From Flavobacteriales bacterium (lineage in GTDB: Bacteria > Bacteroidota > Bacteroidia > NS11-12g > UBA955), in NCBI GenBank assembly GCA_947463125.1, contig CANHQZ010000009.1:1-62637 (forward strand): 62,637 bases of DNA. Reading direction: 5' to 3'. Both the position numbers and the translations under genes were made by a program. Shown here in pieces: positions 4,496-5,063 of the stretch; positions within the stretch are counted from its first letter, which is position 1; every line of letters begins with the position of its first letter. The notes beneath the pieces are model-generated. The model was given only the letters and a program-made list of their open reading frames with translations, had not been told where the DNA came from and searched no databases.

Positions 4496-4618
4496 CAAAA
4501 AAATATGGAGTGAAAGTTACAGACTGCCGGTAAAATATTGTTTTAATGCCTTTCTGTTGGTTGTTTCCTCCATTCCTTCAATACATTCTCAGCATTCGTC
4601 TGTAACATGCCATAAACA

Positions 4619-4645
4619 AAAAACCCGAACTGTTGTCCGGGTTTT
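4619..4645 (-). terminator. Terminator hairpin after the tRNA-like tail (left copy)
   Basis: On the minus strand AAAACCCGGAC, a short loop and GTTCGGGTTTTTT form a GC-rich stem followed by a T-run, directly after the CCA of the tRNA-like fragment. It is a copy of the terminator after tRNA-Val. Confidence 0.75.
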
Positions 4646-4708
4646 GGTGAGAGCTGAGGGGTTCGAACCCCCGACACTCCCGACTTGTCAGTCGGGATGC
4701 TCTGAACC
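4645..4708 (-). pseudogene. 3' half of a tRNA-Val-like sequence with altered anticodon arm
   Basis: In minus-strand order this has GGTTCAGAGCA (end of D-arm), a hairpin TCCCGAC-TGACAA-GTCGGGA where the anticodon arm should be, a variable loop GTGTC, an intact T-arm GGGGGTTCGAACCCCT, and AGCTCTC-ACCA. The 5' half is missing and replaced by the end of the GIY-YIG reading frame. The arm is 7 paired + 6 loop bases rather than 5 + 7, so it does not form a normal anticodon loop. The stem sequence differs from tRNA-Val but remains fully paired. The nuclease stop codon TGA lies in the loop. Confidence 0.7.
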
Positions 4709-4954
4709 CTTGCCCAGCAAAGCCTCTATTCGTTTTTTACTTTTCCATTTCTTGACTTCCCGCTCTCTGCTGTATGCCTCCACTTTTGTCGCAAATGTTT
4801 CACTGTATACCAACAGCCAGTCCTTGGCTTTTGCTGTGTAGCCTTGATGATTGCTAAGGTGTTTTGCAAGACGTTCTTCCATGGAATCGCAGGTGTGACC
4901 AACGTAATACTTATCCAGGGTTTTTGAATACAAAATGTAAAAACAACATGCCAT
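4688..4954 (-). CDS. Small GIY-YIG nuclease inserted at tRNA-Val
   Basis: An 88-residue single-domain GIY-YIG endonuclease of the YhbQ/UPF0213 size class. Visible core: FYILYS (GIY position), YYVGHT (YIG position), the arginine of EERLAKH, and the glutamate of [16 protein letters not shown]. The ATG at 4954 is chosen because MACCFYILY matches the usual family start; a TTG two codons upstream is in frame. The start codon lies just after the tRNA-Val terminator. The last six residues (GSEHPD) and the stop are encoded by the duplicated tRNA-like sequence. It lies between two copies of the tRNA tail and so looks like a mobile or homing-type nuclease gene using the tRNA gene as its site. It has no evident promoter other than read-through from the tRNA. 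Confidence 0.88.
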
Positions 4955-5046
4955 AAACAAAAAACCCGAACATTTGTCCGGGTTTTGGTGGGAGCTGAGG
5001 GGTTCGAACCCCCGACCCTCTGCTTGTAAGGCAGATGCTCTGAACC
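4945..5046 (-). repeat. Right copy of tRNA-tail/terminator duplication
   Basis: This copy is part of the intact tRNA-Val gene, its terminator and the first bases of the GIY-YIG gene. It is offset from the left copy by 341 bases at its left edge. Confidence 0.85.
4961..4986 (-). terminator. Terminator of tRNA-Val
   Basis: On the minus strand AAAACCCGGACA, a two-base loop and TGTTCGGGTTTTTT form a strong stem with a T-run directly after the encoded CCA. The T-run passes straight into the ATG of the GIY-YIG gene. Confidence 0.8.
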
Positions 5047-5063
5047 AGCTGAGCTAAGCTCCC
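4986..5063 (-). tRNA. tRNA-Val (anticodon TAC), CCA encoded
   Basis: A complete cloverleaf can be drawn: acceptor GGGAGCT/AGCTCCC, D-arm GCTC...GAGC, anticodon arm TCTGC-CTTACAA-GCAGA with anticodon TAC, variable loop GGGTC, and T-arm GGGGG-TTCGAAC-CCCTC. Discriminator A is followed by a genomically encoded CCA. A -7 box TATATTTG lies 14 bases upstream and a terminator hairpin lies immediately downstream. Confidence 0.95.

Follow-up and report, generated by a model that had tools for sequence, protein, structure and literature searches.

A small GIY-YIG nuclease gene that lies directly behind a tRNA gene in a Flavobacteriales genome is probably the only gene of a minimal, homing-type selfish element, which consists of that gene, a replacement piece of the target tRNA and at least one palindromic hairpin. 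Such elements insert at a fixed internal position of a tRNA gene, and one junction re-creates an intact tRNA while the other leaves a native remnant that bears a hairpin. The tRNA is restored from either end, each version is faithful to its target, and the elements decay. The replacement piece appears to be the tRNA 3' part with its terminator at the locus described below and the 5' part in a mirror form. The elements are about 340-430 bases long and hold a single gene, and in Bacteroidota versions of them sit in about a dozen kinds of tRNA gene.

The DNA analysed, called the window here, is the whole 62,637-nt stretch of contig CANHQZ010000009.1 of a Flavobacteriales bacterium (GCA_947463125.1). 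Its minus strand reads tRNA-Val(TAC), terminator, GIY-YIG ORF, altered tRNA piece, terminator and a copy of the ORF start (table below). An earlier note on this DNA had given the same order but had taken the second tRNA-like copy for a plain 3' half; in that copy t31-43 of the tRNA is replaced by a palindrome. The intact tRNA-Val at 4986-5063 is the only tRNA that ARAGORN finds at the locus, and its 3' part was, we infer, supplied by the element. As the note had said, the ORF starts directly behind the tRNA terminator (4959-4985), with its ATG at 4954 and its stop at 4688, and its last codons are tRNA-derived, GSEHPD being the reading of GGTTCAGAGCATCCCGAC. The gene is probably expressed by read-through from the tRNA promoter. 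The second copy spans 4604-4708 and is made up of 13 nt of tRNA (t18-30), the palindrome, t44-78 with CCA, the terminator and ATGGCATGTT; it is without the anticodon-arm segment t31-43 (TGCCTTACAAGCA), whose replacement creates the 20-nt palindrome TCCCGACTGACAAGTCGGGA. The claim that tRNA 3' part, CCA, terminator and nuclease start are all present twice holds as well, with a spacing of 341 and a 76-nt core that is 95% identical.

Features of the tRNA-Val locus in window coordinates
Feature	Position	Strand	Basis
tRNA-Val(TAC), intact	4986..5063	-	ARAGORN; same sequence as the tRNA in empty relatives
Intrinsic terminator, separating tRNA and nuclease gene	4959..4985	-	sequence
GIY-YIG nuclease ORF, 88 aa, catalytic Tyr/Tyr/Arg/Glu kept	4688..4954	-	ORF, Pfam and alignment
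tRNA-derived GGTTCAGAGCATC (t18-30), doubling as final ORF codons	4696..4708	-	alignment to tRNA
Palindrome TCCCGACTGACAAGTCGGGA in place of anticodon-arm segment t31-43	4678..4697	no strand	sequence
Displaced tRNA 3' part (t44-78), CCA included	4645..4679	-	alignment to tRNA
Terminator, second copy	4618..4644	-	sequence
Copy of first 10 bases of nuclease gene (ATGGCATGTT)	4604..4613	-	sequence

Since the two terminators are alike and the distal copy carries a nuclease start, a second insertion or a tandem duplication has probably taken place in the window, after which the second nuclease was most likely lost; the ATGGCATGTT copy is either a remnant of that nuclease or a scar of the duplication. 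Like terminators on the proximal and distal sides hide the primary insertion in the window, and the clean evidence comes from relatives. The other tRNA of the window, tRNA-Leu(TAA) at 47832-47918, is unoccupied. Further close relatives of the nuclease are found on contigs C48, C49 and C58 of the same genome. The copies at G000:C48:15-272 and G000:C49:14600-14857 lie beside tRNA-Asp, both at contig ends; thus the assembly seems to break at such elements.

Three pairs of occupied and empty sites with conserved flanks place the insertion inside the tRNA gene. One pair, at tRNA-Asp, consists of loci L125 (genome G049, occupied) and L126 (G038, empty), whose flanks are identical at 539/600 and 561/600 positions. 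In L126 the tRNA is followed by its own terminator, whereas L125 has 386 extra bases: an intact tRNA-Asp is followed by a different terminator and the nuclease gene, and beyond these by GTCGCGGGTTC, hairpins, the native 3' end GAGTCCCGTCCAGACCGC and the terminator seen in L126. The terminator behind the remnant is thus the native one and that behind the intact tRNA is foreign; the insert has brought its own tRNA 3' end, of which the homologous arm is only 18 bp, together with a terminator and a nuclease, and has displaced the native 3' end and terminator. Similarly, at tRNA-Met (G051 versus G048) the distal terminator of occupied L119 matches those of the empty loci L120 and L123, and the proximal one does not. 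The third pair, at tRNA-Leu, has the mirror form, in which the element brings the 5' part: occupied L171 (G145; the empty locus is L172, G062) reads native promoter, displaced tRNA-Leu 5' part, hairpins, nuclease gene and then an intact tRNA without the native promoter. The mirror order is also present in L094, L096, L104, L110 and L117. These pairs bear out the proposal of the earlier note that a selfish element of about 340 bases enters a tRNA gene and restores it with a half that it brings along; the internal insertion point, the palindrome in the displaced part, the mirror form with a 5' half and the arrays described below go beyond that note. Its statement that the nuclease comes alone, with no integrase, agrees with the 386-bp insert of L125, which holds a single GIY-YIG ORF and nothing like the integrase of a tRNA-integrated island. 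A remnant of an integrase att site was considered and rejected, given that there is no integrase, that the insertion point is internal and that the insert is about 400 bp long.

The existence of occupied and empty alleles of one site is as expected for a homing element, and empty sites, which the earlier note had asked for in relatives, are common. Among 55 related genomes the gene is present at tRNA-Val(TAC) in five (G000, G001, G013, G035 and G036, the last with a broken copy) and absent in about 50, and five of the six other members of the window genus have this tRNA without it. Among genomes of the same genus, G001 has an empty tRNA-Asp, the window genome, G002 and G006 have an occupied one, and in G004 and G005 it is followed by remnants without a nuclease; broken nuclease copies are found elsewhere too. 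The tRNA-Val restored by insertion is identical to that of the empty sites, and only the remnant is altered.

The association with tRNA genes recurs widely in related genomes, as the note had suggested should be checked. Neither outcome that the note had named as refuting its idea, a want of empty sites or of further links to tRNA tails, was thus observed. Relatives were gathered from related genomes by similarity, and in ten genomes via the Pfam family, which gave 79 distinct small GIY-YIG genes; four at a contig end were left out. Of the remaining 75, 54 have a same-strand tRNA gene no more than 450 bp away, in a non-random sample where most loci were found through their resemblance to proteins linked to Val or Asp; the fetched flanks of the 75 show no tRNA on the opposite strand. 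The chance expectation is about 1% if a genome has about 45 tRNA genes. None of seven larger GIY-YIG genes (421-609 codons) in the same genomes has a tRNA within 1.5 kb. The targets include the tRNAs for Val, Asp, Asn, Met, Phe, Leu, Ala, Arg, Glu, Ser and Pro.

Other small GIY-YIG genes form a branch of their own and lie away from tRNAs, between inverted REP-like repeats (G000:C58:11938-12171, seen as L004/L132, and L112, L115, L111, L032 and L043). The REP-like CTGAGCCTGTCGAAG has five exact copies in the genome of the window, two of which flank the G000:C58:11938-12171 gene, and it is possible that this branch is the GIY-YIG counterpart of RAYT/REP. At L114:873-1094 and L098:1501-1722 (minus-strand coordinates) GIY-YIG genes lie between CCCGTAGGAT / ATCCAACGGG inverted repeats, and in L114 a tyrosine-recombinase-like gene seems to be split by the insert.

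Junctions were readable at about 25 sites, and in nearly every remnant in which they are resolvable a palindrome stands in for part of the tRNA; a few (e.g. L028 and one in L107) gave no clear long stem in the scan. The position of the hairpin is fixed for each tRNA across genera, at t30|44 for Val (six genomes), t25|36 for Asn (three) and t38|49 for Met (two). For Val and Asn its letters vary from one genome to another; the Met cases share theirs. Stems measure 6-10 bp in the 22 palindromes tested, and 2.3% of their shuffles reach 6. Hairpin structure seems to matter more than its sequence, and the hairpin may protect the remnant, form an end of the element, or both. In the 2.34-Mb window genome TCCCGA(N2-10)TCGGGA was found solely at the window locus, and in the genus it occurs at seven places in seven genomes, five of them in tRNA remnants; we therefore rejected the idea that in this genus the hairpin is a REP dispersed through the genome.

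The window ORF matches Pfam GIY-YIG (PF01541) with E=3.6e-15, which places it in the GIY-YIG superfamily; its matches in the PDB are weak ones to the UPF0213 proteins 1zg2 and 1ywl. Over 77 relatives the first Tyr is conserved in 96%, the Tyr and Gly of Tyr-x-Gly each in 99%, Arg in 99% and Glu in 100%. The dN/dS ratio is 0.06-0.12 for between-genome pairs with an estimable dS, several pairs being saturated, and 0.38 for one tandem pair inside a single locus; these values point to purifying selection on the protein. On the nuclease tree, which was built on 77 columns and leaves many forks unresolved, tRNA identity requires 22 changes, compared with at least 35 in 200 label shuffles, and the split between tRNA-linked and other copies requires five, compared with at least 12 in shuffles. 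Apart from two copies that contig ends cut short, every member of the Val branch is Val-linked; the members come from Chitinophagaceae, Cyclobacterium, Salegentibacter and Bacteroidales. Tree and hairpin positions together tie a nuclease lineage to one target site, as for homing elements. Searches of phage sequences and viral contigs gave no relative of the nuclease, and those of plasmids gave one 40% match. Carriage by phage or plasmid was rejected on these grounds, and the same searches revealed no vehicle for the element.

Some loci hold more than one copy. Tandem arrays on both sides are seen in L005, L010, L030, L036 and L038, and tandem full copies in L010, L027, L030 and L036. Upstream of its tRNA-Val, at a distance of about 80 to 630 bases, L005 has tandem units of about 95 bp, which consist of a tRNA 5' half and hairpins without a nuclease and are possible non-autonomous copies. 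In L054 (G020:C29) tRNA-Val is followed by tandem tRNA-like copies with other inserts in T-loops, and the nuclease gene is absent.

Under the homing-type reading, the nuclease would cut the tRNA gene at the insertion position, and the break would be repaired from a copy of the element with the tRNA halves as homology; alternatively, the element might be joined directly at the cut. The hairpin would then make the displaced remnant uncuttable, mark the element end, or both. The weak point of this reading is self-targeting: a restored tRNA does not differ from an empty target, and an enzyme that cuts at a specific sequence would also cut the locus in which it resides. No protection against this was found. 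A restored tRNA that is still a target could build tandem arrays by repeated events. Homologous arms can be very short, as in L125, and this too counts against the homing-type reading, as does the failure of the searches to reveal a vehicle.

An explanation that puts the hairpins first has the GIY-YIG protein act on palindromes as element ends, as TnpA of IS200/IS605 does, or RAYT on REPs, with a single strand excised or copied and joined at a tRNA arm. A single-stranded tRNA arm is itself a hairpin. The near-universal hairpin in resolvable remnants, with its fixed position and variable letters, speaks for this route, as do L010, L030 and L036, where hairpins lie on either side, and the short nuclease-free upstream units of L005 and L080, which resemble non-autonomous copies. 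Many loci, however, have a hairpin on one side only, and the route needs covalent intermediates of a kind that GIY-YIG enzymes are not known to form; we regard it as distinctly improbable. Slightly less doubtful, though still unlikely, is a broader proposal of a phylum-wide class of exceptionally small autonomous elements (a hairpin and half a tRNA together with a GIY-YIG gene of about 260 bp) that move by hairpin-guided GIY-YIG nick-and-join at tRNA arms, not by classical homing, and can mobilise in trans the units of about 95 bp that have no nuclease.

Plain tandem duplication, with the nuclease near the tRNA for another reason and the remnants made by unequal crossing-over, would account for L001, L019, L030, L034 and L041, where both copies share a terminator and sometimes the nuclease start. 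It is contradicted by the occupied/empty pairs, since the distal terminator is native in L125/L126 and L119/L123; the terminators also differ in L006, L014, L020, L021, L026, L028 and L044, and hairpins at fixed positions go unexplained. As the origin of these loci we consider it very improbable, although it may be the source of later array growth. We give as little credence to a host or defence function, with a tRNA-directed nuclease and the pseudo-tRNA as decoy or regulator: the ORF start just behind the terminator is conserved and the protein is under apparent purifying selection, but the gene is patchy and decayed in close relatives, and the remnants are without the 5' acceptor strand and often degenerate.

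Essential tRNA genes of a major bacterial phylum are thus invaded repeatedly by an integrase-free element of about 400 bp whose survival depends on rebuilding the broken gene, from either end; the tRNA part that it brings keeps the host cell alive. The element explains why small GIY-YIG genes, fragments of tRNA and hairpins lie next to many tRNA genes of Bacteroidota, and it offers a minimal model for the way in which a nuclease gene gains mobility and avoids destroying its own target. As its sites are fixed and tRNA-specific, cleavage is directly testable.

In the open-access literature (preprints and subscription papers lay outside this scope) we found no account of the element, in a bacterial or a tRNA version, and several known systems share parts of its logic. 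Integrative elements and prophages with a tRNA attB also insert in a tRNA and restore its end, but they need an integrase and are kilobases long, whereas the sole gene here encodes an 88-aa nuclease. Group I introns in tRNA anticodon loops share the fixed tRNA position and the homing logic; the tRNA of the present element is contiguous, without an intron, and the remnant lies outside it. Palindromes flank the gene in REP/RAYT and IS200/IS605 as well, with a nuclease of another fold, and the TCCCGA..TCGGGA of the element is not dispersed in the genus. SegB of phages T4 and T6 is, like the present nuclease, a GIY-YIG enzyme encoded beside tRNA genes, a freestanding homing endonuclease next to a tRNA cluster; it cleaves inside tRNA genes, and double-strand breaks and recombination lead to tandem repeats of tRNA and truncated nuclease (PMC13096335). 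T6 SegB has cleavage sites in tRNA genes at its own locus (PMC13096335) and so offers a precedent for self-targeting with tandem amplification. Its reported motif is RAWTSGAAC (PMC13096335), which we read as the complement of the tRNA T-arm consensus. SegB is phage-borne, and the parts of that account available to us describe no insertion within a tRNA with a carried half or hairpin. Another parallel is the mobile ORFs of fungal mitochondria, in Allomyces atp6 and in Glomus atp6, atp9, cox2 and nad3, in which an endonuclease gene (of the GIY-YIG type in Glomus atp9) brings a replacement 3' end of the target and the native end stays downstream (PMC3630166). Those mobile ORFs differ in that they reside in organelles, target protein genes and are longer (about 1000 bp in atp6), and the portions of the source consulted describe neither a junction palindrome nor a mirror form (PMC3630166). 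A carried replacement end and a native end left behind are both found in L125/L126, L119/L123 and L171/L172; the logic of a replacement gene end is already known from mitochondrial mobile ORFs, including the GIY-YIG one in Glomus atp9 (PMC3630166).
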